A DNA stretch of 64,000 bases from a virus. The stretch is taken from positions 1 through 64,000 of the IMG/VR virus record IMGVR_UViG_3300035126_000631; one strand, given 5' to 3'. Position numbers and translations under genes: made by a program. A model generated the notes under the pieces. It did no database searches, was not told the DNA's origin, and saw nothing but the letters and a program-made list of their open reading frames with translations. Below, in pieces: positions 22,426 to 57,397 of the stretch; within the stretch, counting starts at the first letter, position 1, and every line of letters begins with the position of its first letter.

Positions 22426-25400
22426 ATGGCTTGGTATGATGACCCAGAAGAAGTCCGTCGCGTCACCGCAGAAGCTCTCGGACTCGGACTAGAGGATCCG
22501 GAATCCGCGGAGGAACCCGACCTCGGACCGCGGCTCAGTCTCAATACGGTCGCCCCTGATGAGTCTCGTGCGGTTGAGGTGACCGAGAAGAAATGGTGGG
22601 AAGATCCGGATGCCGTCGAGGCGGCGATGCGGGAAGCGGGTGTTGCTGTGGCTGCTCCGATGCGGTCGAAACGGTCATTGACTGGAGAAATTGGCGCTGG
22701 ATTGGAACGAGGCACAGACCAGACCCAGGGGCTTCTTTATGGATTCAGCGGACTTCTTGGGCAGGCTATCGGGGTTGAAGAATTGGAGCAGTTTGGTTTG
22801 GAGAATTATGCCCGCAAGATGGAGGAGGCAGCGGAGAACCAAGCCTCGATCCAAGATCCGACCGAGGACATCGACGGGCTAGGGGACTTCGGTCTTTATG
22901 CGGCTGGGATAATAAGTGAGCAACTCCCGCAGCTTTTAATTTCTCTCGGTGGTGCAGGCTTGGGTGGGGCTGCGGCCAAAACAGCAGCCCAGCGCATCAT
23001 CGCCAACGAAGTCGCCAAGCGCACGGCGGCAGGCATGGCCAAGAATGAAGCGGCAAAAGAAGTCGCGCAGCTTGTCGCACAGAACGCGCTGACCGCAGCC
23101 GGAACCGCCGCCAAGCGCGGGGCGGTCGGCGGGGCTTACTTGGCCAACTTCGGCCAGATCGCTGGCGGGAGTTTCGGGCAGATGGCACAGGAATTGGGTG
23201 AGGGTAATGCCGCGCAAGCGGCAGCATTTGCCGCGCCTGGAGCCGCACTCGACACGCTCGGGGAAGTCTTTGTCGCTGGAAAGTTTTTGAAGCCCCTCTC
23301 TCAAGCGCAACGTGCAGCCGTGGAAGGCGTGAAGCCTTTGACCCTCGGCCGCATCGGGGGAGGTCTTGCCGGTGGGGCGGCAAGTGGATCTGCTGTGGAG
23401 GGGCCGACTGAGTATATCCAAACCGGATTGGAGCAAGCGGCCCTCGGATCGGCAGACCCGAATCGCACGGTGGGGGATGTCGTTATGACGCCGGAAGCCG
23501 AACGTGAGCGTCAGATCGCCGCGGCGGCTGGTGCCACGGTCGGCGGTCTTCTCGGCGGTGCGGGTGGTGTGGTCGAAGTGGCGTTCTCCCCGCGGACGAC
23601 CGAGGCGCTCCGGACAAAGAGGCAGCAACAGCAGACCGGAAGCGAATTGCCGCCCGAGCAAAGCCAAGAGCAGGAGCAACAGCAAGAAGCCCCCGCTGAT
23701 GAAGAGTGGTCGGAGCCAATTACGATCCAGAGCCGCAACGAGGAATATAACAATCTCGAATACCGCCAGAACAAGGCGGGTCAGGTGTGGGCGTTCAATG
23801 TGCCAGAGGTGAGCCGCTTCGGAGCATTTGCCATCCCGACCAAATACGGCCAAGGCGTTCTGCTTAATCCTGCGTTCGAAGGTGCTTCGGATATCCGCAG
23901 CGAAGTGAAGGCCAAGCTCGCGGAGATGGCCGATCCAGAGGCGTTCAAGGCACCGCCCGTCACACCGCCGAAGAAGGTCGAGGAGAACCTCGAAGATGCG
24001 GATCTGGTGGAGGGTGAAGAAGTTGCCTCCAACGCCGAGGAGCTTGCCGCTGCGGCCGAGCGCCGCCGTTTACGTGACCAAGAAATTTTGACCCGCGACT
24101 TGGAGTCCGCGGCGGCGACCTTGGCCCGCCCGCAAGAGGATGCCAAGGGCTTCGTCGACAATCTCAAGGAAGGCGACCAAGTCAGTGTGCTGACCGAGGA
24201 CGGCGAAGGTAATGCCTTCGCGATCCCGATGACGTTCGTGCGGCTGAATCAAAACGGCCAAGCCCAACTCCGCAGTGAGCCGGATGAGGATAACAAAGTC
24301 GCCACCCGGCTTTACGATGCAGATGAGTTCAACCGGATCACGACACGTCCGGCCGAGCAAGTGGCTCCCGCCGCCGCGACTACCGGAACTGGCATTAAGG
24401 TGTCGCCGCTAACCGCGCCGATCCGTCCTGCTGCCGAAGGTGAGCAGTTGAGTGAGGCCGAGCGGGCGCAGAATCTTCTCTACTTCAAAGATGTCGAGGG
24501 TTCGAAGATCGATGACAATCTTTGGATCAACTCGGCGCGTGAACTCGGCGTGCCGATCACGCCGGAGACGACGGGTGCAATCGCCGAGCAGGAGATCCGC
24601 AACCGCTTCGGTGTCGAGCGCACTACGACCAAGCAGGATGATCCGGCGAGCCAAGTGCTCATGGACGCTCTCGGGCCGAACCCGACCAGACAGAAGCTCG
24701 AATCGATGACGGGCACGCGCTGGACGGGCAAGGGGAGCAAGTTCACCTGGATGTTGCCGGATAAGCTCGGCGGCAAAGGCATCCCAGTCACGACACGACT
24801 TTTCAATCGTAAGGCTCCGGCCGAGGCGTTGCCGATACCGCAGCGTTCGACGACCCGTGGATTCAAGCCCGAGGAGCAGGGCGGCACGGCTCCGGCTGCA
24901 CCGGACATCCAGACCACAGGACCGGACCTCATTGCCAAGAGCAGCGCGGAATTTGTCGGTGTCCGCAAGGGCGAGAAAAACGAACTTGTCTCTGCCCGTC
25001 CGACCCGCGGGCAGGACAACGCGACTTATCTCCAAGAGGTCGATACCGCTGCCGACACGACGATCCGGCAGATGAACTATCTTGGACAGCCCGTGCTGGT
25101 CACACCGGAGACGGCGCAATCGCTGGCCGAGGCCAACCAATTCTGGACTGAACACGAGCAGCGGCAGAAAGCAGGCACGGCTAAAGTGGATCGCCAGCCC
25201 GTGCGCTTCTATACGCAAGAGCGTTCGGATAAAGACGGCAACCGCAACACTTTCATCACGGGCGTCACCTATGAAGGGCGCACGTATCGTGTCGGCAAGA
25301 CTCCGCAGGAATTTTCCGTAGATCGTGCGCTAACCCAGCGCGGAGCCAAGAGCCGACGCCGAGGCTTGGGGATCTACGATCCGATCCGTATCGCTTCGCC

Positions 25401-28400
25401 GTCCCGCATCGCACGAAGCGAGGCGGGTATGGCATCGGCCAAGACAGAAGCAGGGGATGGTCCGCTGACAGAAGCCCTTCGCGGTGTGCAGGGTCGTGCC
25501 GCGATCGCAGAACTCAATGATGCCGAGAATGCGGTCTATGGCTTCTTCGATGATAAGATCACCAGTCCGATCCTGAATATCCAAGATCCGGCCGTGACGA
25601 CCGAAGTGCGTGACACGGCGCTGGAAACAGCCAGGGGCAAGGTCGCGGCGGCATTCCTCAAAGCGAAGAAGGCCAACCCGAGCGAGAAGACCAAGGTGCT
25701 GCCCGGCCGTCAGCGCACGATCGGCGAAAAGGTCTCCGACAAACTCATCGCCTACCAAGAAGCCAAGCGAGGTCTCGCGATTCAGGCTTTGCGCGACAAG
25801 TTCCGCGGGCTGAGTGAGAAGGCGACCGCAGCCAAAGCCGCAGCCCGCGGAACAGGCGCGGGTAAGGCGCTCAAGATGTCGCCGCAGGGGGCGATGAACC
25901 TCATCACCCGTGCCCGTCGAGGGCAGAAGGCCGGCATCCCCGAGGCCAAGCGTGCAACCCGCGATGAGGCGCTCACTGCGTTGCAGGAACTCGTGGACTT
26001 CGGTGCGCTCGATCAAGAGAAGAAGGACGCGCAGATCAGGCGCATCCTCGATAAGGCCGAGAAGTTCTCCGAGGTCGATCGCGACTTCATGGCCGAGCAG
26101 ATCATCTCGGAGTTGGCCGAAGCGGATAAAGCTCTTGCCACTCAGCAGGGGCGCAAGTATTCGCGCTCGACGGCCGAGGTTGCCCAAGATCGCCGCCTCG
26201 TCCTTTCCACTTTCAATCTCCTCAACGACTCCAGCATCCGCTCGCTCAATCCCTACAACATCGGCAATAGTGCCTTGAGCGCGGCCAAGCGCACGGCGAC
26301 CCGCAAGGGTATGACCCGCGACGAGGTCAGCCTCGATGACGAGAACCAAGGGGCAGGCGATGAGGTGGCGCTAAAGGCCAGCCAGCCGGACGACAAGGGC
26401 CGGATCGATCAAGCCAAGCTGGCCGAGAGGGGCAAGCGGGTGGGCGTTGAGGACGCCGAGGGCGGGGAAATCGCACCGTTTACCAACAACATAGAGGAGG
26501 CTCTCAACCTGATGGACGAGTTGCCCGACTCTGACCGAGACCTTTTCCTGCGTTATGCCGGTATGGAGATTGAACGCCAAGCGGGCGAACGCAGTCAAAC
26601 TAACCAACCACTCTCAGAAGTCGACCGACTCTGGGCCGGAAGGATAAAATCATACCTCGATGGAAAAATTAACAGATCCCAGCTTGAATACTTCAGAAAC
26701 GAAGAGCGTCGACTCGTCGAACGCACCACTCCCAGAGCGACCCCCGCTGAACTTACGAACCTTCGCCGCGGCGTATCAAATGAGGCGGCACTTTCCGGAG
26801 TTGCTGAATCGCGTGCCGCCCGAACTCCGGACACGGCTCCAACAGGGCGAGCCGAGCGTGTTGTCGGATCTCCTGCGGACCCAGCCGGAACTGTTCAGGA
26901 ATCAACTGCTGGGCAGACTGGAGGACGAGGCGTTCAGCCAACTCCTCGCCGGACAAGAGCCGTCGCCGCAGCAGCCCAGCGAGACTTCGCCGGAGCCATC
27001 CTTGGCCTAGACGAGGCCGAGACCGCGGCTCTGCCGCAAGGGACAGTTGACCGCGTCTACCAGTCCTACCTTGCTACCTTTGATGGCGTCCTCGCGGAGC
27101 AGAGTAATAATCCCCTAACTGCATCCGCCGCACCCGCCGCCGACACGGTGACGGCCGACGGCAAGAAGATGTTCGAGCGGTTCGCCGCCGCACGCCTCAA
27201 TCCCAACCAGCAGCGTGCGGCCATCATCCGCAGCAACATGGCGCAAGCCTACCGCGCCGGACTCTTCGACGAAGATCCGGTCGTGTCGGCCATCAACAAG
27301 ATCGCCACCGACAAGACGCAGCCGATGAACCTCCGGCTCATGGCCAAGGAGTTCGTCAAGAATGCCAAGCGCGGCGTGCGCTTCGACCGCGTCGTCCTCG
27401 ACATCGGACGCTTCACCAAGCCGGGCAACAAGCAGACCACTTGGGCCGGACTCTTCAGCCTGACGCCCGAGGGCGCTCCGGTCGTCTCGATCAACCTGGA
27501 CAACCTCCACGACAAGAACAGCGTCCCGCTCACTTTCCTCCACGAACTCCAGCACGTCGTCATCCGCGACAAGGTGCGCCGCGCTATCCCGCTGACCCGC
27601 GCCGAGGAACAAGCCTTGGCCCGTCTGGAAGATCTCCGCAGCCAAGCGGTCATTGCCGCCGCCCGTCAGCAGGGCATTGAGGTCGGAGCCACACCGAACG
27701 TCAACGCGCTGGCCGAACGACTCTACGCCCTGACCGATCCGAATAGCACGCAGAGCGGAGCCGCCGTCGACAACCGCCGCCTCGCCGGACTGGTCAACTT
27801 GGAAGAGTTCGTCATCGAGATGATCGGCAACCCCGACATGGTGCGGTTGCTCTCTGAACTTGGGTTCGGTGAAGCCCGCACCGACGGCAAACGCTTCAGC
27901 CTGACCGGCGCTCTCCGCAATGCTTGGAACGCGGTCGTCGAACTTATCACCGGAGCTAAAGTTGACCCAACCAGTCCCTTGGCGATGGCGTTCAAGGATA
28001 GTTGGACGGTCAACTTCGGCACGGCTCGCAATCCTAACATCACCGAGATCAAAGCGAGCAAACGCCTGGCCGACCGCCAGCAGGCCCAGACAAGGCAGCA
28101 GTATGTCGAAGGCGAGATCGAAGCCCGCGATATGGCCGGAACGACCCGCGATCGCAACCGCATCATGCAGGAGATCACGGGTCCGGCCGACACGCAGACC
28201 GAAGCCATGCGTTCCTCGATGCTCGATGCCGCCCGCAACATGACCGAGGATCAGTGGGTCGCCGCAGCCCGCGCTCAAGGATTCGACTTCGTCGATCCCG
28301 GTGCCGTCTACCGCCAAGCCAGAGCAGAAGCGGTGCAAGCTGCACCGGAACAAGCTACAGGCGACACGGTTCAGGTTGCAGAGAGCCGTGCCGTAGCTCA

Positions 28401-31400
28401 ACCAAGTGGCCAAGATCCTGAGAAGAGCATACAGGAGCAACTCGCAGAGAAGAGGCAACAACTCGCAGAGCTTCGAGCAGTCAATCGCGAAGAAACTGGA
28501 CGTAGACTTCTTCAATTAGCTGAAGCTCGTGGAGAAAACTTTTTTCAACTTCCGAAAAACCTTTCAAACAGCGAAGACCTATTGACTGTTTTAGAGTCGA
28601 CGGGCGCTCGGTTTTCAATGGTCAACATGAGACCTCCGGAGCAGGTGGAGGCTGGAGAATCACGTGAGATCATCCTTGGCTCACGCAACTCTGTTGTCCT
28701 CGGCCGTCGTGCCCTCTACGAAAAAGAAAACGGAGAGGTCTCATCCGGAGACGTTGTTCGTAAGACGAACAGCGCAGTATTCATCCAAGACGGCAAAGAT
28801 GTTGTGAGAATCCCCGCGGAAAGAGTTGTCGGGATCGACGGGACGATAATGATTAAAGAGGAACCCGATCCATTTGGTTCTGTCTGGCCCGGTAAAGTAT
28901 GGGCTGTTGATGCTTCAGACGGAGATACCAATGCTATTGTCGATTCCACGCGCATCTATCAAGGGTTGTATCAATGGGCTGCAAATACAGGGCAAAAGAT
29001 TGTCCCAGACAGCGCAGGGACTTCGCCGACTGGAAGCTACCGTCGCAACGCACAGCAGATCTCTAGTGCTCTTCGCCTACAATCGGCTGAACACTTCATA
29101 CCGACAGAAGCTCAGTTGGACTTAATGTTCCCTGAGATAAGCACTGATTCAGAAAAAGTAACCAAATGGTTAGGCTCTACTTTAGAAGAGAAGGTCGGGG
29201 CTTTGGCACTGGCCGAAGTCGGCTTCGTTGAACAGCTTCTCCCTGATCTTGTCTCACTTAGTTATGACCCAAACACTGATAGCTTCTTGGGAGAAGGCAC
29301 ACCCATTAGTAGAGACGAAGCAGGAAAACGACTTGATAACCTCCTTGCGGACCCGGAAGAGCAAGACCCAACTGATCCTATCCGAATCGGAGAGGCAACT
29401 CTTGTCAGGTATCTTGCAGCGAGATCCGCGCTTCAAGGGAGCTTCAGAGCAGACGCTCCGGTCTTGCGCTCTGAATCTACTTCTTTAGACAAGATCGCCT
29501 ACAGCCGTGCCGTCGGTCGCCCGTTCGCATCCGACACGGCGACGACTTACAACGGCAAGACCTACACGCGCCCTGGGCTGATCTTCGGCGAGAACGCCAA
29601 CCTCGATCCCCAGGCTACGGAACTGGTCTCCATCCTCAAGAGGGTGAAGCGTGCGGCCGAGCAGTATGCCAATCTCAAGGGGCGGGAACTCAATCGCCTC
29701 ATCAAGAAGTATTACAAGGACGAGCCGGTTCCGACCGACCTTATCAACGATGCGCTGGGTAACCTCGACAACCCGCTGACCGATCAGCAGTTCGACGAGA
29801 TCAAGCGGCTTGAATTGACCGACCCCGAAGCGGCGGTAGCCAAGCGAATCGCTTACCTCGGGGAGAACCGCGCACGTTTCCGCACCGAGCGTCAGGCTCC
29901 GGCCTTGCTTGCCCTGCCGGAAGAACTGGCCGAGTTCCTGCGTGAGATCGGCGGAAGCCGCGAAACTCCGGGCGACCTTTATCGTCTGCAAGAGGAAGCC
30001 CTCAAGCTCGGTATTCCGAAAGGTGACATGGCGACGGCTTTCACTGAGAACCTCGGCATCTACCTGACCCGTAGTTACAACGCCTTCATCGATCAAGAAG
30101 GATGGGAGCGCACGCTCCGCGCCGAAGACGCCGCGCTCGGCGAGCAGTCGCGCATGGGGCAGTTCCGTAATCAAATCCGTTCCACGTTGATCGGCCAGCG
30201 GGCCGACGATCTGCTGACCAAGGCCCAAGAAGAGGGCCGCACGCTCTCCCGCGCCGAAGCCGAACGCCGCGCCAAGGAAGGCACGACGACCGAAGAGGTC
30301 GATCAAATGCTGGAGAGCTACATCGCCTACACCAAGGAAGAGGCTTCCTCGGAATCCTTCTCCGGTCTGCGTCTGCCCGGTCGCCAGAACATCAAGAGCT
30401 TGGAGCAGCGCAAGCGGCTCTCCGACGCCCTGCGCGAGTTCTACGGCCAAGTGGAGAACCCGGCGGTCAACTTTGTCACCAGCTACGCGAAACTTTCCTC
30501 GCTCGTCGCCAACCATAAGTTCCAGACCGAACTGAAAAACCTCGGACTGAAAGAAGGCTGGCTCTGGGATCAGGAGAAGAACGTCGGACAGCGTCCTCCT
30601 TCCGGATACGAGCGCATCGCCGCCGACAACGACAAGTCCCTCAAGGTCTTGGCCGGACTCTACGCCCGCTCGGATCTTGTCCGTGGCTTGCGCGAGACGT
30701 TCCCGCCGAACTCGATGGAAGCGGCCCAGTGGTGGCTGCATCCGTTTATGAAGCTCACCGGACTTTCGATGGGCCTAAAGACTGTCGGCTCGATGGTATC
30801 CCAGATCCGCAACTACTGGAGTAGCTACGCTCCGATCATTGCCGGCGGCAACATGACGATCGCCGACTGGTTCCGCCCTGAGTGGCGCAAGAATTGGAAG
30901 GAGGCGCATGAGGTCTCGATCGCCAACGTGTTCCGTAAATACGGCGGCGACCGCCAGAAGATGACCAATCGGATCAAACGCCTCTACGAACTTGGCGTGA
31001 TGGGTGAGTCGCTAACGGTCGGTCTCCTCAACGACCTAACCCGCCTCGGGAAAGATGCCTCGATCAGCGACGAGCAGTTCTTCAACAACTTCGAGAAGAT
31101 CCTCAAGAAGCCGGGTCGCCGGGTCTGGAATGCGACCAAGCAAGTCTGGGAGAAAGCCGAGCAAGTCTACGGCATGACCGACGACATTTTCAAAGTGCTC
31201 ACCTACCTCTCGGAGTTCGACAAATACCAGAAGGTCTATCCGAATATGTCGGAGTCCGAGCTTGAGAAGAAAGCATCCGACATCGCCCGTGACATCCACT
31301 GGACGTATTCCAAGGCTCCTGCGGCGGTCAATGAACTCAAGAAGTTCCCCTTCATCGCGCCGTTCGTTACGTTCACGACCGAGACGATCCGGATCACGGC

Positions 31401-32511
31401 CAACCTCGGCAAGCTGGCCATCAACGAGCGCAAAGAAGGCCAGCGCCTTCGCGAGCAGGGATTGCGTGAGAACAATGCGGAACTGGTGCGCCAAGGCGAC
31501 GAGCTTCTCAAGATCAGCAACAAACGTATGCGTGGTATGGCGGCAGTCGCCTTCGGTCCGTGGGCCGTCGGTTCTTTAGCTATGACCGCAGCCGGATTCT
31601 CCGGAGACGATGAAGAAGACCTCCGCCAGTTCCTCCCCGATTGGCAGAAGAACAGCCAGATTCTAATCCTCGGCCGCAACGGCTCCGACATTAACTATGT
31701 CGATGTCTCCTACCTCGATCCCTTTGAGGTCTGGAAGAAGCCGATGACTGCCTTCATGCGCGGGCTCGGGCGTTCTGAGAACGTCGAAGAGTTCTTCACC
31801 GAAGCGGTGGTCGGAGCAGCCCTCGAAGCCGCCCGCCCGTTCACCAGTGAGCAGATTCTTTCCGGCGCAGTTATGGATGTGATGCGGAACCGTGATGCCA
31901 ACGGCCGTCAGGTCTACAACCCGCAGGATACGGGCACGGCGATCGCCACAGCGGTCGGTGCTAAACTCGGTTCGGCATTCACCCCAGGGACGATGGACAC
32001 CGTCGATCGCATCTATAAGGCCAGCGCCGGACAGATGAGCGAGACGGGTCGCGCCTACCAACCATTCAATGAATGGGGCTCGCTGGTCTTCGGTCAGCGT
32101 GTCAGCGCGGTCGATGCCGAACAAGCCCTTGGCTTCAAGGCTTCGCAGTTCCTCCGCGCCCGTCGGGATGCCCGCAGCATCTTCAACCGCGACTACCTCT
32201 CCCGTGGTTCACGTTCGGAGTCCGATGTAGTAAGTGCATACCAGCGCAGCAACGCGGGTCTCCGCGATGTGACCGAGCGACTCCGCCGTGAGTATATCGC
32301 CGCGCTTAATCTCGGCGTCTCACCCGCCAAAGCCCGCAGCGTTCTTCGCGCCTCCGGACTGGACCGCGACTCGGCCCGCATGATCTCGACGGGCATCTAC
32401 CGCCGTCTCACCCCGAGCGAGGAGCAGGACCGCATGGCCGCACCGGATCGCAAGCGTGCCGCCCGCCAAGCAATTGCCGAGACCCCGCAGCGCGAAGTCC
32501 TGTTCCCGTAA
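22426..32511 (+). CDS. Giant internal virion protein (3361 aa) with zincin-like motif
   Basis: The largest gene. Residues about 80-400 hold alternating amphipathic and hydrophobic segments (QLLISLGGAGLGGAAAKTAA; AAAAGATVGGLLGGAGGVV), suited to membrane insertion. A metallopeptidase motif FLHELQHVV lies at His1706-His1710, with NLEEFVIEM at 1791 as a possible third ligand. Residues about 1995-2350 are coded by visibly AT-richer DNA, like an acquired domain. The C-terminal third has long helices and the KFPFIAPFVTF segment (about 2970), typical of large polyvalent phage proteins. It is probably ejected into the cell with the DNA. No T7-type RNA polymerase motifs were found. Confidence 0.75.
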   Translation: MAWYDDPEEVRRVTAEALGLGLEDPESAEEPDLGPRLSLNTVAPDESRAVEVTEKKWWEDPDAVEAAMREAGVAVAAPMRSKRSLTGEIGAGLERGTDQTQGLLYGFSGLLGQAIGVEELEQFGLENYARKMEEAAENQASIQDPTEDIDGLGDFGLYAAGIISEQLPQLLISLGGAGLGGAAAKTAAQRIIANEVAKRTAAGMAKNEAAKEVAQLVAQNALTAAGTAAKRGAVGGAYLANFGQIAGGSFGQMAQELGEGNAAQAAAFAAPGAALDTLGEVFVAGKFLKPLSQAQRAAVEGVKPLTLGRIGGGLAGGAASGSAVEGPTEYIQTGLEQAALGSADPNRTVGDVVMTPEAERERQIAAAAGATVGGLLGGAGGVVEVAFSPRTTEALRTKRQQQQTGSELPPEQSQEQEQQQEAPADEEWSEPITIQSRNEEYNNLEYRQNKAGQVWAFNVPEVSRFGAFAIPTKYGQGVLLNPAFEGASDIRSEVKAKLAEMADPEAFKAPPVTPPKKVEENLEDADLVEGEEVASNAEELAAAAERRRLRDQEILTRDLESAAATLARPQEDAKGFVDNLKEGDQVSVLTEDGEGNAFAIPMTFVRLNQNGQAQLRSEPDEDNKVATRLYDADEFNRITTRPAEQVAPAAATTGTGIKVSPLTAPIRPAAEGEQLSEAERAQNLLYFKDVEGSKIDDNLWINSARELGVPITPETTGAIAEQEIRNRFGVERTTTKQDDPASQVLMDALGPNPTRQKLESMTGTRWTGKGSKFTWMLPDKLGGKGIPVTTRLFNRKAPAEALPIPQRSTTRGFKPEEQGGTAPAAPDIQTTGPDLIAKSSAEFVGVRKGEKNELVSARPTRGQDNATYLQEVDTAADTTIRQMNYLGQPVLVTPETAQSLAEANQFWTEHEQRQKAGTAKVDRQPVRFYTQERSDKDGNRNTFITGVTYEGRTYRVGKTPQEFSVDRALTQRGAKSRRRGLGIYDPIRIASPSRIARSEAGMASAKTEAGDGPLTEALRGVQGRAAIAELNDAENAVYGFFDDKITSPILNIQDPAVTTEVRDTALETARGKVAAAFLKAKKANPSEKTKVLPGRQRTIGEKVSDKLIAYQEAKRGLAIQALRDKFRGLSEKATAAKAAARGTGAGKALKMSPQGAMNLITRARRGQKAGIPEAKRATRDEALTALQELVDFGALDQEKKDAQIRRILDKAEKFSEVDRDFMAEQIISELAEADKALATQQGRKYSRSTAEVAQDRRLVLSTFNLLNDSSIRSLNPYNIGNSALSAAKRTATRKGMTRDEVSLDDENQGAGDEVALKASQPDDKGRIDQAKLAERGKRVGVEDAEGGEIAPFTNNIEEALNLMDELPDSDRDLFLRYAGMEIERQAGERSQTNQPLSEVDRLWAGRIKSYLDGKINRSQLEYFRNEERRLVERTTPRATPAELTNLRRGVSNEAALSGVAESRAARTPDTAPTGRAERVVGSPADPAGTVQESTAGQTGGRGVQPTPRRTRAVAAAAQRDFAGAILGLDEAETAALPQGTVDRVYQSYLATFDGVLAEQSNNPLTASAAPAADTVTADGKKMFERFAAARLNPNQQRAAIIRSNMAQAYRAGLFDEDPVVSAINKIATDKTQPMNLRLMAKEFVKNAKRGVRFDRVVLDIGRFTKPGNKQTTWAGLFSLTPEGAPVVSINLDNLHDKNSVPLTFLHELQHVVIRDKVRRAIPLTRAEEQALARLEDLRSQAVIAAARQQGIEVGATPNVNALAERLYALTDPNSTQSGAAVDNRRLAGLVNLEEFVIEMIGNPDMVRLLSELGFGEARTDGKRFSLTGALRNAWNAVVELITGAKVDPTSPLAMAFKDSWTVNFGTARNPNITEIKASKRLADRQQAQTRQQYVEGEIEARDMAGTTRDRNRIMQEITGPADTQTEAMRSSMLDAARNMTEDQWVAAARAQGFDFVDPGAVYRQARAEAVQAAPEQATGDTVQVAESRAVAQPSGQDPEKSIQEQLAEKRQQLAELRAVNREETGRRLLQLAEARGENFFQLPKNLSNSEDLLTVLESTGARFSMVNMRPPEQVEAGESREIILGSRNSVVLGRRALYEKENGEVSSGDVVRKTNSAVFIQDGKDVVRIPAERVVGIDGTIMIKEEPDPFGSVWPGKVWAVDASDGDTNAIVDSTRIYQGLYQWAANTGQKIVPDSAGTSPTGSYRRNAQQISSALRLQSAEHFIPTEAQLDLMFPEISTDSEKVTKWLGSTLEEKVGALALAEVGFVEQLLPDLVSLSYDPNTDSFLGEGTPISRDEAGKRLDNLLADPEEQDPTDPIRIGEATLVRYLAARSALQGSFRADAPVLRSESTSLDKIAYSRAVGRPFASDTATTYNGKTYTRPGLIFGENANLDPQATELVSILKRVKRAAEQYANLKGRELNRLIKKYYKDEPVPTDLINDALGNLDNPLTDQQFDEIKRLELTDPEAAVAKRIAYLGENRARFRTERQAPALLALPEELAEFLREIGGSRETPGDLYRLQEEALKLGIPKGDMATAFTENLGIYLTRSYNAFIDQEGWERTLRAEDAALGEQSRMGQFRNQIRSTLIGQRADDLLTKAQEEGRTLSRAEAERRAKEGTTTEEVDQMLESYIAYTKEEASSESFSGLRLPGRQNIKSLEQRKRLSDALREFYGQVENPAVNFVTSYAKLSSLVANHKFQTELKNLGLKEGWLWDQEKNVGQRPPSGYERIAADNDKSLKVLAGLYARSDLVRGLRETFPPNSMEAAQWWLHPFMKLTGLSMGLKTVGSMVSQIRNYWSSYAPIIAGGNMTIADWFRPEWRKNWKEAHEVSIANVFRKYGGDRQKMTNRIKRLYELGVMGESLTVGLLNDLTRLGKDASISDEQFFNNFEKILKKPGRRVWNATKQVWEKAEQVYGMTDDIFKVLTYLSEFDKYQKVYPNMSESELEKKASDIARDIHWTYSKAPAAVNELKKFPFIAPFVTFTTETIRITANLGKLAINERKEGQRLREQGLRENNAELVRQGDELLKISNKRMRGMAAVAFGPWAVGSLAMTAAGFSGDDEEDLRQFLPDWQKNSQILILGRNGSDINYVDVSYLDPFEVWKKPMTAFMRGLGRSENVEEFFTEAVVGAALEAARPFTSEQILSGAVMDVMRNRDANGRQVYNPQDTGTAIATAVGAKLGSAFTPGTMDTVDRIYKASAGQMSETGRAYQPFNEWGSLVFGQRVSAVDAEQALGFKASQFLRARRDARSIFNRDYLSRGSRSESDVVSAYQRSNAGLRDVTERLRREYIAALNLGVSPAKARSVLRASGLDRDSARMISTGIYRRLTPSEEQDRMAAPDRKRAARQAIAETPQREVLFP
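26660..27010 (+). CDS. Possible overlapping gene inside the giant gene (+1 frame)
   Basis: A 116-codon reading frame in the +1 phase, from ATG to TAG. Its product (LNLRTFAAAYQMRRHFPELL, LRTQPELFRNQLLGRLEDEA) looks more protein-like than the host frame, which here reads as an Ala/Thr/Arg/Gly-rich disordered linker. The third codon positions in this frame are mostly G or C, as in real genes of this phage. There is no Shine-Dalgarno sequence. It may be an overprinted gene or the trace of two compensating frameshifts in the giant gene. Confidence 0.35.
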   Translation: MEKLTDPSLNTSETKSVDSSNAPLPERPPLNLRTFAAAYQMRRHFPELLNRVPPELRTRLQQGEPSVLSDLLRTQPELFRNQLLGRLEDEAFSQLLAGQEPSPQQPSETSPEPSLA

Positions 32512-37421: not shown

Positions 37422-38450
37422 TTATCTGGTTGTGGAGTTATTACTCAAGCGGCAAGTGAGGTCGTGGAAGGCGACGGCGGCGCACTGGGGCACAACGCCG
37501 TTTCCTGCCAGACGTAACTCGTCCCAGCGCGAATCGCAGGACACGCACAACTCGGCATAAGCCAGCCGATTGGCAGTCCCATCAAGGCTTCGCAAAACCT
37601 CGGATTCAGCTTGGCCTTCACCAGATAGCCACCCTCGGCCTGACTCACATCCTGCCCGAGTGACTTCTGCTTTCTGCCGACCGCCATCCCAGCTTTGCCG
37701 TCCCCCGCGTTCGGTGTCGCCCAGCAAGACTCGGGGTGGTTCCCAGTCATGCTGCTCTTCGCCCGGACGGGCGGGCCAAGGATGCCCCCCTCCCGATAGG
37801 CTTGGACTGCCACATCCAAGGTGTCCATCGAGAGCTTCCCGTTCCGTATGCGGCCCCCTTGGTAGCCACCCTTCGAGTCCCGCGCCGAGGCGGTGGGCCA
37901 GGATAAAGACCCTGCGTCGTTGGTGAGGCGCTCCCGCATCGACTGACGCCGAGTATAGTCCCGCCTCTGCTCGGTAACCCACGCGCTCCAATTCTCGGAG
38001 GACATGGAGCAGAACCGGAGTGCCGGCAGGGTCGCTCCACCCGTCTCCCTTGAGCTTGGCCGAGACGATGCCTTCGACGTTCTCCAAGAAAACAGCGGTA
38101 GGTCGTGCTCGGCGGATGCCGTCGAGGATGAAGGGGAAGAGGTGTCTCGGGTCTTCATCTCCGGCGCGGACTCCGGCAGCACTGAATGGCTGACATGGAA
38201 AACCGCCCGAGATGATCGAGACTCCGGCGAACTCTTCCCAAGGGAAAGTGCGGAGATCAGGCCAGATCGGAGCCGCATCAAGTTGCCCGCCCTCCATGCG
38301 CGAGAGAAGTAACTCGCACGCGAAGGCTTCGATTTCACTGTAAGCGACTGTCCGCAGACGTTCGCCAACGACTCTACGGATTCCGAGGTCAAGACCTCCA
38401 TATCCGGTGCATAGACTGATGTGTGTGATGGTAGGATCCACATGGTTCAT
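37422..38450 (-). CDS. C5 cytosine-specific DNA methyltransferase
   Basis: A 342-residue enzyme with the ordered m5C motifs: I SLCTGYGGLDLGI, IV GGFPCQPFSAAG (catalytic Cys), VI VFLENVEGI, VIII HQRRRVFILAH and X LRLAGNGVVPQCAAVAF. It would methylate cytosine in a short DNA target to escape host restriction or mark the genome; no cognate endonuclease is seen. A junction motif (TATGGAGTTATTA on the plus strand) lies 6 bases before the start. Its last codons read through another copy of that motif. Confidence 0.9.
   Translation of the reverse strand: MNHVDPTITHISLCTGYGGLDLGIRRVVGERLRTVAYSEIEAFACELLLSRMEGGQLDAAPIWPDLRTFPWEEFAGVSIISGGFPCQPFSAAGVRAGDEDPRHLFPFILDGIRRARPTAVFLENVEGIVSAKLKGDGWSDPAGTPVLLHVLRELERVGYRAEAGLYSASVDAGAPHQRRRVFILAHRLGAGLEGWLPRGPHTEREALDGHLGCGSPSLSGGGHPWPARPGEEQHDWEPPRVLLGDTERGGRQSWDGGRQKAEVTRAGCESGRGWLSGEGQAESEVLRSLDGTANRLAYAELCVSCDSRWDELRLAGNGVVPQCAAVAFHDLTCRLSNNSTTR
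37445..38443 (-). CDS. Second coding-like frame overlapping the cytosine methyltransferase gene
   Basis: An open frame of 332 codons within the methyltransferase gene in another phase. Its C-terminal half (SLSWPTASARDSKGGYQG ... ESCWATPNAGDGKAG ... LNPRFCEALMGLPIGWLMPS) matches a familiar phage protein pattern (WPTP-type repeats, then LNPRFVEALMGFPIGWT). Internal starts at 38158 (MKTRDTSS) or 38005 (MSSENWSAWVTEQRRDY) are more likely than 38443. Its stop lies one base before a junction motif, exactly as for other genes here. Function unknown; it could be a target-recognition partner. Confidence 0.5.
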   Translation of the reverse strand: MWILPSHTSVYAPDMEVLTSESVESLANVCGQSLTVKSKPSRASYFSRAWRAGNLMRLRSGLISALSLGKSSPESRSSRAVFHVSHSVLPESAPEMKTRDTSSPSSSTASAEHDLPLFSWRTSKASSRPSSRETGGATLPALRFCSMSSENWSAWVTEQRRDYTRRQSMRERLTNDAGSLSWPTASARDSKGGYQGGRIRNGKLSMDTLDVAVQAYREGGILGPPVRAKSSMTGNHPESCWATPNAGDGKAGMAVGRKQKSLGQDVSQAEGGYLVKAKLNPRFCEALMGLPIGWLMPSCACPAIRAGTSYVWQETALCPSAPPSPSTTSLAA

Positions 38451-51056: not shown

Positions 51057-53414
51057 TTAAAATGGATCATTCGACTCCGGCTCCGCCGTCTCCGGGGTCG
51101 GCTTGGTCAGCCGGTATTTGTGGAGCTTGGCCTTGCCGCAGCGTTTGGCGATCAACTCGACGTTCGGGTCACCTTGGGTCTGGAGTTCGGCGAGGCGGCG
51201 TCCGAGGACGCGAACCGGCCACTCACGGGTCAGGGAGACGTTGTCGAAGACATCGTTGAAGGATTGGTGCAGTTCGACCGCGGTTCCTTCCCACGGTTCG
51301 TCGGTGCCACGGCGCTCCCACCAAGCGTTGAGCGTGTCGCGCAATTCGGCGGTGCGGCTTGAGGCTTCGATCTTCTCGCGCACTTCTTGGGCGATGTAGC
51401 TACGGATGAAGTAGCGGTTGGCTGCGTCGATGTATTTCGGTGGGATATCCCACGCCTTGAGCCAAGCGAGGAGGGCGGGGAGTTCGGATTCCACGTCCTT
51501 GAGTTCATCGACCGTCGGGCCTTCCTCGAAGGTTCTCATAGCCAGCGCGATGATCTTGTCCTCATTCGAGATGTTGAGCGCCGGCACGGCCTTGATTGAC
51601 ACCGGATCGTCGTTGGCTGCGATGACCACACGGCCGCGCCACTCGACCATGATGGGGGTCAGGTATTTCTCGTGGTATTTATGGGTGCCGTGGGCGACGA
51701 GCTTCTTGATTGCGCTCGCGTAGCGGTTGAGTTGCGCCTCGGATTCCGCGGCACGAGAGTCATCGATGATGGCCAGTGGCGACTGGAAGAGGTCGGCGTT
51801 GAATCCGTTGCCTTCGCCCGAGACGATCGAGGAGAGATCCGCGTAGCCGCCCATTGCGGGCTTGAGGAACTTCTCGATGAAGAAGGTCTTATAGCAGTGG
51901 ACCGGACCGACCAGGATCATGGCTTGGCCCATGCAGAGTTTGCCACGTTCCGCGGATTCGTAGAACCGTTTGAACCACGCGAGGAAGATGTCGCGGTATT
52001 CATCGGAGGCGAAGACGTTGTCGAGGATGGCCGCGTAGCGTGGGAAGCCTTCGCCCCAAGCCCCGGCGGTCTCGGCCGCTTTGACGATATGGACGTTCTT
52101 GGCGGTGTTGAGGTATTTCTTGCCGCCTTCGAACCAAAGTTCGTTCTTGTTGTAGAGCGACGGTCCTGCACCGTCCACGCGACGGTGTTCGCGAATGAAG
52201 GCTTTGGCGCGGTCCATCGGTGACATGGCGGCACCCTTCGGGGCGCGGTCACTGAACCCGCGGCATTTGAGTTCGCTGGACAGCATCGCGACCATTTCGT
52301 ATCGCCAAATCCCGTCGTCGGCTTTCATAAAGAAGGTTTTGCCGTCGTAATATATGTCGTCAAACTGTCCGCTCTTGTTCGCATTGGTGGACGGTTTGGA
52401 CACCTCTGGTGAGGTGCTATCCCCGTTTTCGGCGGCTAAAGCGTCATTTGTGCGGTCCTCGGTAAGGGGGGCGGCAATTTGACCCCCTCCTTCTAAACCC
52501 GTGGATTTCGACGGGTTCACGCGCCCAGCCTCCGGGTTGAAGTAGATGAGGGTCTGTGCCTTTCCGGTGTCTTTCCTCATGCACCCTGGCACACGAGTCA
52601 GGCGCACGGCCGACATGGCAGCGGGATCGGCACCGAGCGGGACGAGGACATCGGCAATCTCGGAGGCTTTCTCCAGATACTCGGCACGGTTTTTAGTATT
52701 TACGCGGACGAGAGCGTGAGCCGACTTCGAGCCGGAGGTCGTGACCGAGACGATCGGGAGGTTGAGATTGGAGAGCACACGTAGCCATAGTTCGAGATCG
52801 ACCGAGTCGGATTCGATGAGGAGGTATTCGTAGGCCACGAGATTCTCTTCGGCCCGGCGGGACTTCTTGCCGAGGCGCTCGATCGCTTTGAATTGACCGT
52901 CGACCGGATTGACCATGATCCATGCGCCCTCTGTGTTGTTGGCGATGATTTGATCGACGGCCAGATCCGGCACCTTGTCGTGCCACACCAGCTTCCCCTG
53001 AGTCTGCTGATCGACGAAAACGATGTTATGCTTGCCGCCGTAGAGACGACGGAGGAACTCGGAGGTCGAGACATCGGCTGTCGGGATGGGTGAGGAGGCT
53101 TTGAAATCCTCGATCGAGAGCGGGCCTTCTTTGGTCAGTTCGGTCAGACGATCCTCATCCTTCTCGCGCTTCAGTGAAACCTTCGGGCGCGGCTCGATGA
53201 GACCCTCGGCCTCGGCGCGGACGTTGGCGAGCGTGTCGACGATCTCGCGTGGCTGTGGGTCACGCTGGAGGTGGTGCGTGATCCATTGCTCGATGAAGGC
53301 ATCGTCATAGGCGTTAGCAACCAGCGCGTGCGCTGCGCCGAACATCCATGTGTGGCATCCTTGGCCGGAGGTTGGGCAGGGGTTGAGTCCGAGTTCTTCA
53401 GGTGTAGGTGACAT
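51057..53414 (-). CDS. Primase-helicase (SF3 / D5-like)
   Basis: A 785-residue replication protein. The N-terminal half contains YEYLLIESDSVDLELWLRVL and TTSGSKSAHALVRV, matching the archaeo-eukaryotic-type primase region of phage primases. Around residue 500, ILVGPVHCYKTFFIEKFL is a Walker A motif with Tyr in place of the usual Gly; LAIIDDSRA is Walker B, and GRVVIAANDDP sensor 1. The C-terminus looks like a winged helix. It starts after a junction motif (GGTGGAGTTATTA on the plus strand). It would prime and unwind phage DNA for the PolA. Confidence 0.8.
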   Translation of the reverse strand: MSPTPEELGLNPCPTSGQGCHTWMFGAAHALVANAYDDAFIEQWITHHLQRDPQPREIVDTLANVRAEAEGLIEPRPKVSLKREKDEDRLTELTKEGPLSIEDFKASSPIPTADVSTSEFLRRLYGGKHNIVFVDQQTQGKLVWHDKVPDLAVDQIIANNTEGAWIMVNPVDGQFKAIERLGKKSRRAEENLVAYEYLLIESDSVDLELWLRVLSNLNLPIVSVTTSGSKSAHALVRVNTKNRAEYLEKASEIADVLVPLGADPAAMSAVRLTRVPGCMRKDTGKAQTLIYFNPEAGRVNPSKSTGLEGGGQIAAPLTEDRTNDALAAENGDSTSPEVSKPSTNANKSGQFDDIYYDGKTFFMKADDGIWRYEMVAMLSSELKCRGFSDRAPKGAAMSPMDRAKAFIREHRRVDGAGPSLYNKNELWFEGGKKYLNTAKNVHIVKAAETAGAWGEGFPRYAAILDNVFASDEYRDIFLAWFKRFYESAERGKLCMGQAMILVGPVHCYKTFFIEKFLKPAMGGYADLSSIVSGEGNGFNADLFQSPLAIIDDSRAAESEAQLNRYASAIKKLVAHGTHKYHEKYLTPIMVEWRGRVVIAANDDPVSIKAVPALNISNEDKIIALAMRTFEEGPTVDELKDVESELPALLAWLKAWDIPPKYIDAANRYFIRSYIAQEVREKIEASSRTAELRDTLNAWWERRGTDEPWEGTAVELHQSFNDVFDNVSLTREWPVRVLGRRLAELQTQGDPNVELIAKRCGKAKLHKYRLTKPTPETAEPESNDPF

Positions 53415-53431: not shown

Positions 53432-54808
53432 TTATTTACGGTAATGTTTGGATACGATGGCTTCGGCTCCCAGCGGGAGGTCCGAGGCCCAAATTGGTGG
53501 GGTCGACATGATTTCTTCGATCACTTGGCGGTGATCTTCGGCGTCATATTCATCGACGAGGACGACGACTTCATCGTGGATACGCATGAGGATTTCATAA
53601 CCAGCGTCTTCCAGTGCCATGCAGCGGTCCATGAAGACATCACGGGCAAGCGCCTGCGTGGCATTTTCCGCCAGCAAGCCCCCATACAGCTTTACGTCCA
53701 TGAGCTTCCCGAGTCTCGGGAGCTTGGCGACGATGTTGCCGGTGATGCGCCGAACGTCGCGGTAAACGAGTTCTCGTCCGGAGGGTAGGGGAATTTCCAA
53801 AGTCTTGTCGTTTGGGTCGGTGGCGATGCGGAGCGCACGATCGAGCTTGGCCCACAGTGCGGTGATCTTCGGAGACGACTCGCGGTAGGACTGCACAATT
53901 TGTTGCGATTCCTCGAAAGATATGTCGAGTCCGGCCAGCATCTTGGCGACGAGTTGGAACTTCGCCGCACCGCAGCCATAACCAAGACCAAGCACACGGG
54001 CCTTGGCGAGAAAGCGCATCTTCGGATCCACTTCCTTGAGTGGGCGGGGGTCGTTGTATCCCATCGTCGCCCTGGCGTGCGCCTCGTAGATGTCGATACC
54101 GGAGGCGATCAGTTTGAGGAGATCCTTGTCGCCCGCGAGGTAGGGGAGGCAGCGTGCTTCGATCTGGGCAAGATCGCAGATGACGAGTGTATTCCCCGCG
54201 GGAGCCTCGATGAGGTTGCGGATATCCACGCCGGCCACTTCTCCTTTGGGGATATTCTGGGCGTTCCAGCCGCCCCCTCCGCTATCCCGTCCGGTTGTGG
54301 CACCGAAGTATTTAAGCTCGTAGCCCATCCGACCGTCGGGCCGCGTCCGGGCAATCATCGCCTGCACGGTCTTCAAATGTTTGTTGGCCTTACGGTAGTC
54401 GCGCACAGCGCGAACCCACGGAAACTTGTCGGCGAACTCCGCTTCCCATGCCGCACCCTCGGGATCTTTCTCCGCAAAGGACTTCGGTGAGCGGATACCT
54501 TCCTTCTCGCACTGGTCGCGGATCGCTTGCAGGGAGAGGGGAGGATATTCACCACCGATCCAAGGAAGAAGAGCCTCGGTCCGGCGCTTCTCCTCGATGA
54601 GCTTGGCTTCCGCGGCCTTGAGCTTCTCCATGTTGACTGGCACCCCGCGCATTCCCATCCGGCGCGTCATAGCCGAGATCCGCCACTCATGGTCGGGCAT
54701 CTTATGGCCATGCTCCTTCCAGAGCATGAAGGTGGCCTTCGCGTCATGGAGCGCGTAGCGGGCGACTTCTTTTTTGAAGTCGTTGGTCATGTAAGGGCTC
54801 TTAGGCAT
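53432..54808 (-). CDS. Family-A DNA polymerase, polymerase part with only exonuclease motif III
   Basis: A 458-residue polymerase: motif A ICDLAQIEARCLPYLAGD (about 210-220), motif B RFLAKARVLGLGYGCG (about 263-278), motif C RIHDEVVV (about 410). The N-terminus starts abruptly with VARYALHDAKATFML, which is exonuclease motif III (Tyr18, Asp22); motifs I and II are on the separate product at 55228-55725. The polymerase is therefore split within its 3'-5' exonuclease domain. The two parts would need to associate for proofreading. Confidence 0.85.
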   Translation of the reverse strand: MPKSPYMTNDFKKEVARYALHDAKATFMLWKEHGHKMPDHEWRISAMTRRMGMRGVPVNMEKLKAAEAKLIEEKRRTEALLPWIGGEYPPLSLQAIRDQCEKEGIRSPKSFAEKDPEGAAWEAEFADKFPWVRAVRDYRKANKHLKTVQAMIARTRPDGRMGYELKYFGATTGRDSGGGGWNAQNIPKGEVAGVDIRNLIEAPAGNTLVICDLAQIEARCLPYLAGDKDLLKLIASGIDIYEAHARATMGYNDPRPLKEVDPKMRFLAKARVLGLGYGCGAAKFQLVAKMLAGLDISFEESQQIVQSYRESSPKITALWAKLDRALRIATDPNDKTLEIPLPSGRELVYRDVRRITGNIVAKLPRLGKLMDVKLYGGLLAENATQALARDVFMDRCMALEDAGYEILMRIHDEVVVLVDEYDAEDHRQVIEEIMSTPPIWASDLPLGAEAIVSKHYRK

Positions 54809-55043
54809 CGGGTTTCTTCAATACAAAGGGTCTTGGTAGGAGGATCGGCCGCTGTCCCGCTTTCCGGCTGGTTGTCTTGCGGCGGTAGCCGATCAGGGCC
54901 AGGTCGTCTCCCGACTTCGCGATGATTGGGATGAGCCGGCCCTGCTTCACGAGGCGCTCGATCTTCGGCATACCTTGGCGTTGTTTTGCTTGGTTGGTGG
55001 CTGTTCGTTGCACGACAGACCCGTCTTTCAGTCCGTAGCTCAT
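54801..55043 (-). CDS. Small basic protein inserted between the polymerase halves (80 aa)
   Basis: MSYGLKDGSVVQRTATNQAK, then IERLVKQGRLIPIIAKSGDD and a basic C-terminus (RRKTTSRKAGQRPILLPRPF). Possibly a small nucleic-acid-binding domain; no endonuclease motif. It overlaps the polymerase start by 8 bases and the upstream gene by 4. Confidence 0.55.
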   Translation of the reverse strand: MSYGLKDGSVVQRTATNQAKQRQGMPKIERLVKQGRLIPIIAKSGDDLALIGYRRKTTSRKAGQRPILLPRPFVLKKPDA

Positions 55044-55243
55044 CGTCTTACGAAGGTCTGGTCACTCAGCCACATGGCGTTGAGATGCTCGTGAGACATG
55101 TCTGCTTTCCAGAAGAAAGCCGACTTGCGTTGGGTTTTCGGATCGGGTTCGAAGGTGACGTAGCCATCGTTGTCGTGACCGAAATCCTCCGGTGTCTGCC
55201 ATCCGCTGATCGCGGTGAATACGCGCATTAGTCCTTTGTCCAT
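55040..55243 (-). CDS. Small protein inserted between the polymerase halves (67 aa)
   Basis: MDKGLMRVFTAISGWQTPED, then YVTFEPDPKTQRKSAFFWKA and HEHLNAMWLSDQTFVRR. The start is preceded by GAAAGGGATGAT, which is also coding sequence for the end of the exonuclease gene (16-base overlap). No family recognised. Confidence 0.55.
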   Translation of the reverse strand: MDKGLMRVFTAISGWQTPEDFGHDNDGYVTFEPDPKTQRKSAFFWKADMSHEHLNAMWLSDQTFVRR

Positions 55244-55725
55244 ATCATCCCTTTCATATTGGTTCGGGTGTCTTTCTTGATTTTGATTTTGAGCAGTTCG
55301 GCCGAGGCTTGGGCCAGACTCCTGGGGTAGCCTAGATAGGCCGCGAGGTCGGCTGTATCGAAGACGAAGCGAGGCTTCACTGGAGGCACCGTGCCGGACT
55401 CGACGAGCGCGTCGAAGAGCGTCAGGTCGAAGGCAGCGTTGTGCATGATCCAGTTGAGCCCGTCGCACTCGTCCCACGGCGCGTCGAAGGGTGATCCGAC
55501 ATAGGCATCCCCGTCGTCGAAATACATGCTTACCATGTAAATGTCGGTAGCGCGGGCGTAGTGCCATGCCCCCATCGTGGTGACTGAGGTGTCGGTGTCG
55601 TAGTAGCTCTCGAAGTCGATTGCTACGGAAGAGCACTGGGAGACTGCGTTTTTCGCGCAAACCCCGCCCCCCAGCGGAGTTGTTTGTGTTTTAATTGTGC
55701 AGTCCCCCAGTAAAGTCGTTGTCAT
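55228..55725 (-). CDS. 3'-5' exonuclease fragment of the family-A polymerase (motifs I and II)
   Basis: A 165-residue protein. Exonuclease motif I is VAIDFESYYD (Asp37, Glu39), motif II MHNAAFDLTLFDAL (His95, Asp100); motif III is missing and is found at the start of the polymerase gene. The C-terminus KKDTRTNMKGMIWTKD is the linker that in intact polymerases is followed directly by motif III. The start at 55725 overlaps the upstream stop as ATGA. It is not a free-standing nuclease but the front half of a split enzyme. Confidence 0.8.
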   Translation of the reverse strand: MTTTLLGDCTIKTQTTPLGGGVCAKNAVSQCSSVAIDFESYYDTDTSVTTMGAWHYARATDIYMVSMYFDDGDAYVGSPFDAPWDECDGLNWIMHNAAFDLTLFDALVESGTVPPVKPRFVFDTADLAAYLGYPRSLAQASAELLKIKIKKDTRTNMKGMIWTKD

Positions 55726-56771: not shown

Positions 56772-56962
56772 TTGATCCCCCCGACAAATTCACGCTGGCG
56801 CTCGGTCAGCAGATTTTCCTTCCACTCCTGTAACTCCCATTGCGCGAGTTCTTCCGACATCTGGTGGCGCTTATGAACCTCCAGATAGGCGGAGCCAAAC
56901 CCGACAACCACGGCGGTGGTGACAGCCATCGCCATGACGGAACAGAATCGACGTGCGGTCAT
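56768..56962 (-). CDS. Small single-span membrane protein (64 aa)
   Basis: Starts MTARRFCSVMAMAVTTAVVV with GGAGTGGAA before it; one N-terminal membrane anchor and a charged helical C-terminus (SEELAQWELQEWKENLLTER). The stop overlaps the next start. Function unknown. Confidence 0.55.
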   Translation of the reverse strand: MTARRFCSVMAMAVTTAVVVGFGSAYLEVHKRHQMSEELAQWELQEWKENLLTERQREFVGGIK

Positions 56963-57315
56963 TTCCACTCCTTCCGGTGGCAGAGGAGGCCGATGATCCC
57001 GTAATTCGCGATATCCAACCAAGTGTCGGAAACCTTCTCGTGCTCTGGCGACTTGTCCTTCCAGACGAGCGTCTTGAGGCGCTCGACCTTATCATTCATC
57101 CGGACGATGATTCCCTTCTCGCCGAAGGCGGAGATGTTCGCGCTGCCGTAGTCGCGCTGTTTGGAGTCGAGGAGAACAGCAGATTCGCAAAAGGCACGGA
57201 ACGCTTTACGTCCCATGTCGGTTTTGATGCCGAGAGCTTCGGCGGTTTTGTCCATCAATCCTTCGGCATCGAGTTCGAAGGCTTTCGGGTCGTAGGTAAT
57301 AGTTTCAGTAGTCAT
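56959..57315 (-). CDS. Nucleotide modification associated domain 1 protein (DUF1599-like)
   Basis: A 118-residue protein with SKQRDYGSANISAFGEKG, IIVRMNDKVERLKTLVW and EKVSDTWLDIANYGIIGLL, the conserved blocks of the DUF1599 family, a MazG-related helical family linked with phages carrying modified nucleotides. It may hydrolyse or sense a nucleotide. The start at 57315 follows the terminator-like region. Confidence 0.75.
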   Translation of the reverse strand: MTTETITYDPKAFELDAEGLMDKTAEALGIKTDMGRKAFRAFCESAVLLDSKQRDYGSANISAFGEKGIIVRMNDKVERLKTLVWKDKSPEHEKVSDTWLDIANYGIIGLLCHRKEWK

Positions 57316-57334
57316 AAAAATTATTTTGAAGAAG

Positions 57335-57397
57335 TCCCCGGAGAGGGAGAACACAGGGACGCCAACCAAAGCGCCCCAACAAGACCCTCTCCGGGGA
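57335..57397 (-). terminator. Long perfect inverted repeat between the 57405 and 56959 genes
   Basis: TCCCCGGAGAGGG (57335-57347) pairs perfectly with CCCTCTCCGGGGA (57385-57397) across a 37-base loop. On the minus strand it is followed by CTTCTTCAAAATAATTTTT, a loose T-run, so it probably ends or attenuates the replication transcript. The large loop could also hold a regulatory structure. Confidence 0.6.

Follow-up and report, generated by a model that had tools for sequence, protein, structure and literature searches.

We found that the family-A replicative DNA polymerase of this virus is encoded as two proteins, with the break falling inside the proofreading exonuclease domain, and we consider it likely that this is a stable gene fission in which the exonuclease and polymerase halves form a two-subunit enzyme that completes its proofreading site in trans. 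The window, meaning the whole stretch of DNA analyzed, covers bases 1–64000 of the 74,043-base IMG/VR record IMGVR_UViG_3300035126_000631. Four overlapping genes lie on its minus strand in the order exo, g1, g2, and pol: exo (55228–55725) is an ORF for the 165-aa exonuclease half of PolA, with motif I (DFE), motif II (HNAAFD), and the C-terminus ...NMKGMIWTKD; g1 (55040–55243) and g2 (54801–55043) encode proteins of 67 and 80 aa; and pol (53432–54808) encodes the other PolA half, 458 aa long with the N-terminus MPKSPYMTNDFKKE. The start of g1 sits within the final codons of exo, its stop shares the sequence ATGA at 55043 with the g2 start, and the final 8 nt of g2 overlap the start of pol, in keeping with the preliminary description of two overlapping insert genes with start–stop coupling. 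The minus-strand gap within the polymerase gene, from exo stop to pol start (54809–55227, 419 nt), is wholly coding in the window, with 0 non-coding bases left. A primase-helicase-like gene follows pol 17 nt on (51057–53414, minus strand; PHROG 2597 DNA primase, E 1.2e-23; Pfam DUF5906). Elsewhere in the window, a single ORF of 3361 aa was found among the structural genes (22426–32511, plus strand).

The two ORFs match successive stretches of the PHROG 17 (phage DNA polymerase) profile, exo at 673–787 (E 1.5e-8) and pol at 804–1231 (E 1.8e-76), and are thus consecutive pieces of one protein family. The assignment of pol is further supported by alignment with intact relatives and by Pfam DNA_pol_A (PF00476; E 1.2e-28, 100.5 bits against a cut-off of 34.3). 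Against Pfam DNA_pol_A_exo1 (PF01612), exo scored 18.8 bits, below the cut-off of 23.6, and we assign it through PHROG 17 and its alignment to intact relatives. The three DEDDy motifs, I (DxE), II (NxxxD), and III (YxxxD), are all present but spread over two chains: motifs I and II are on exo, and motif III (Y18 and D22) is on pol together with the full polymerase domain, a division noted in the preliminary description with which both the coordinates and the alignment agree. None of the six catalytic exonuclease residues is missing from any of the proteins compared (14/14 split, 30/30 fused).

Across the junction, the sequence of L053, the closest relative with an intact gene, is ...STRDNMKGKHWKDMTPEFKKEVADYAL..., or in a longer stretch ...EMSKSTRDNMKGKHWKDMTPEFKKEVADYALGDAK...; in split relatives, exo ends ...STRDNMKGMKWTKDS* and pol restarts MPKSPYMTNDFKKEVARYAL.... 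Comparison of these ends indicates that no residues were lost at the junction, and each half is usually a few residues longer than in L053. When L053 was modeled with AlphaFold (mean pLDDT 93), the cut mapped to a loop between W131 and M134, ahead of the long helix (136–163) that bears Y145 and D149 of motif III. Alignment and model agree on the location first proposed, in the linker ahead of YxxxD that is continuous in intact relatives. The Pol I large fragment fold was recovered on this model of the intact sister, used in place of the window pol; the L053 model matched Aquifex and Bacillus Pol I at E 1e-21 to 1e-23 and a TM of ~0.7. Modeled alone with AlphaFold, the window exo has a compact core, with pLDDT above 90 for most of residues 31–140 and without the motif III helix, and its N-terminal tail is variable and disordered. 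A methylase gene lies directly after the intact polymerase in L053, and a similar C5 DNA methyltransferase-like ORF is present in the window (37422–38450, minus strand).

Scanning viral contigs with pol yielded 20 loci, and an alignment scan returned 67 viral loci and 5 in bacterial genomes. The survey of relatives for the same split suggested by the preliminary description found the break in 17 related viral contigs with differing gap contents and an intact gene in ~50 remoter relatives: the split occurred in all contigs with at least 79% pol identity and exo visible (17), and the fused form at 62% identity or less (~50). In a maximum-likelihood tree, the split loci formed one clade (support 100/99) with the fused L053 as its sister (100/100); by this topology, the split arose once. 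We rejected one further locus as an independent split, since its in-frame TAG is accompanied by no insert and no nearby restart codon, making a nonsense change or sequence error likelier; this prophage-like locus of Verrucomicrobiaceae bacterium E54 (L108:5461–7326) carries the TAG in the same exo–pol linker. The bacterial-genome matches (39–45% identity) came from Akkermansia, Pontiellaceae, a Verrucomicrobiaceae isolate, and one other bacterial MAG. These matches indicate Verrucomicrobiota hosts for the wider group, and the lineage probably consists of uncultured phages of Verrucomicrobiota, an assignment taken from the wider group's matches. No isolated phage has a close exo relative.

Between exo and pol, the gap in relatives spans 346–3446 nt and is packed with small coupled ORFs, which in various relatives include coiled-coil-like proteins, a match to PHROG 18407 (L010, with a similar ORF in L008), and others. 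Judged by these contents, the gap behaves as a variable cargo island. By eye, the PHROG 18407-type ORF (~143 aa; L008:3622–4053 and L010:1890–2321) resembles a PD-(D/E)XK nuclease. The insert of two genes is thus present in the window as originally described but is not a fixed unit, as g1 is constant, while g2 is found in nearly all split relatives but is exchanged. HMM matches to g1 were detected in all split contigs, and g1 follows exo in every split relative with the junction covered, with one extra ORF between them in L008. In L015 (5297–5497), an in-frame stop interrupts g1, leaving two HMM pieces in one frame. The DNA distance of g2 between the window and L012 is 3.6%, though their pol genes differ by 23%, and between the window and L002 it is 36%, though pol differs by 3%, a pattern indicating that g2 moves independently and is exchanged between lineages. 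Neither g1 nor g2 had a usable match in Pfam, PHROGs, or PADLOC.

Profile searches also detected g1 homologues (E 1e-13 to 1e-16) directly downstream of the uninterrupted polymerase gene in L067, L068, L070, L085, L090, and L097. The gene order in these relatives is SSB-like, polymerase, DUF1599, membrane protein, g1, and primase; in the split lineage, the DUF1599 gene (nucleotide modification associated; in the window at 56959–57342, minus strand, Pfam PF07659, E 3.5e-7) and a small membrane-protein gene lie upstream of exo. The presence of g1 homologues in the block flanking intact polymerases suggests that g1 comes from an old accessory block, and it very likely entered the polymerase gene through rearrangement. 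A search for g1 in the 28-kb record of the intact sister L053 did not find it. The split could also have begun with insertion of a homing endonuclease whose place was taken by small genes after its loss, a route known for T4-type nrdA and perhaps also followed by gene 43 (PMC2988022). We keep this origin in play because an HNH endonuclease ORF lies directly after the intact pol of L089 (6187–6921; PHROG 3322, 3e-24) and intein-like inserts occur in L088 and L090, but we regard it as unlikely: no homing endonuclease is recognizable in the gaps of split relatives, with no match for g1, g2, or the tested cargo and the remaining cargo judged by eye, and the constant resident is instead g1, with its homologues beside intact polymerases. 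Such a beginning would be compatible with a two-subunit enzyme, as it bears on the origin of the split alone. We also considered tandem duplication followed by complementary loss, but no remnant of the missing halves was seen in the gap.

Median dN/dS was 0.25 for exo, 0.12 for pol, and 0.19 for g1, values indicating that exo and pol are both under purifying selection. Across 13 split contigs, the DNA distances of exo and pol were correlated at r=0.87, compared to 0.30 for g2 and pol, which points to co-inheritance of exo and pol. The conservation of both halves makes it very likely that they assemble into one enzyme. At the level of sequence, the single origin of the split, the catalytic residues on both chains, dN/dS far below 1, and co-inheritance all favor the functional two-subunit enzyme that the preliminary description thought likely. 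In such an enzyme, exo and pol would be translated separately from one operon via their overlapping start and stop codons and would associate without a covalent link; both complex formation and activity are steps we infer. The active site would be composite: exo would contribute the two metal-binding residues of motif I (D and E) together with N and D of motif II, and pol the motif III residues Y and D, carried on its first long helix, so proofreading should need both chains. The break may later have become a tolerated landing site for small accessory genes, with g1 as a resident gene, most likely out of the accessory block flanking intact polymerases, and g2 and the remaining gap genes as exchangeable cargo. 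More doubtfully, g1 could be a third subunit or regulator of a polymerase with trans-completed proofreading, with fidelity tunable by subunit supply.

A different reading is that exo is an independent nuclease (e.g., RNase T/DnaQ-like), leaving pol exonuclease-deficient and its motif III a relic. A structure search with exo alone ranked RNase T first, the exo N-terminal tail is variable and disordered, and exo outpaces pol in divergence within the split clade, where, at 70–86% pol identity, the exo/pol distance ratio is ~1.3–1.5 versus 0.8–0.95 in fused relatives. This faster divergence suggests that constraint on exo may be somewhat relaxed within the split clade, but over the longer term the exo half is not ahead, as the split clade shares 66.5% identity with L053 in exo and about 61–62% in pol. 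We find an independent nuclease quite improbable, because the motif III residues of pol, Y18 and D22, do not vary among the split proteins (14/14), which would be unexpected of a relic at 79–85% pol identity, exo itself is without the helix bearing motif III, and the two genes are kept in one operon and co-inherited. A complete independent exonuclease elsewhere in the genome would have spoken against a shared site, but no second PolA-type exonuclease or other match to exo was found in the 74-kb record, though other diverged exonucleases could escape a PF01612 search that overlooked even the window exo.

It is very unlikely that the gap is spliced out, as a group I/II intron or split intein, to yield a single polymerase chain. 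Introns and inteins commonly reside in phage polymerase genes, and in two fused relatives pol is interrupted at another site by an intein-like insert of ~350 aa. These inserts (L090:4515–7316 and L088:2667–5426) occupy the site ...TEN/CVQA-ARDVFM in the intact pol, starting CLSGETQVLSQRGW and ending ..IAHN. In the split lineage, by comparison, the gap is fully coding with varied content over its range of lengths, exo ends in a stop codon of its own and pol opens with its own start, and no intein-like sequence was seen at the exo C-terminus or pol N-terminus when these ends were inspected across split relatives. Rfam gave 0 matches even at E<=1 in the window (50–59 kb) and 0 at gathering thresholds in eight relatives. 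Rfam, Pfam, PHROGs, and the inspected termini thus gave no signal of a homing endonuclease, intron, or intein in the gap, as the first reading of the sequence had held. Although the sequence derives from a metagenome, an assembly or sequencing artifact has a negligible chance of explaining the break, which the survey found in identical position in 17 contigs with diverged gap contents while more distant relatives are fused.

The split lineage offers a natural experiment in which a proofreading active site is divided over two proteins and is old enough for the halves to have diverged, with a closely related intact sister (L053) at hand for comparison. Mixing of subunits would allow the coupling between polymerase and proofreading to be studied, and a core replication gene here appears to host a hot spot for exchangeable small genes. 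Split phage polymerases are already known, and what is new here is the cut between motifs II and III and the variable cargo. The OM43 (Methylophilales) phages MEP401/402 and most of their group encode PolA in two ORFs with a small ORF between them (PMC10580990), and thus share with our lineage a family-A phage polymerase in two ORFs and a small insert without known function. The cut in those phages instead falls immediately ahead of motif A, within the polymerase domain; all three exonuclease motifs are on gp13, and the insert is one 77-aa ORF, with variable cargo not described (PMC10580990). In the Aeromonas phages 25 and 44RR, gene 43 is split, and the 43A and 43B proteins from phage 25 are active and purify together (PMC2988022). 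This is likewise a replicative phage polymerase made as two proteins, but it belongs to family B, is of unrelated origin, and has its gap occupied by either a seg homing endonuclease or a spacer that is not translated. The nrdA gene of Aeh1, split by mobE yet still functional (PMC2988022), is similarly an essential phage enzyme broken by a small inserted gene, though the enzyme is a different one and the insert is a homing endonuclease. Polymerases of the phiKZ type also have the polymerase and proofreading nuclease on separate proteins (PMC7824862), but there the entire exonuclease is encoded elsewhere, whereas here one active site appears to be shared by neighboring genes.
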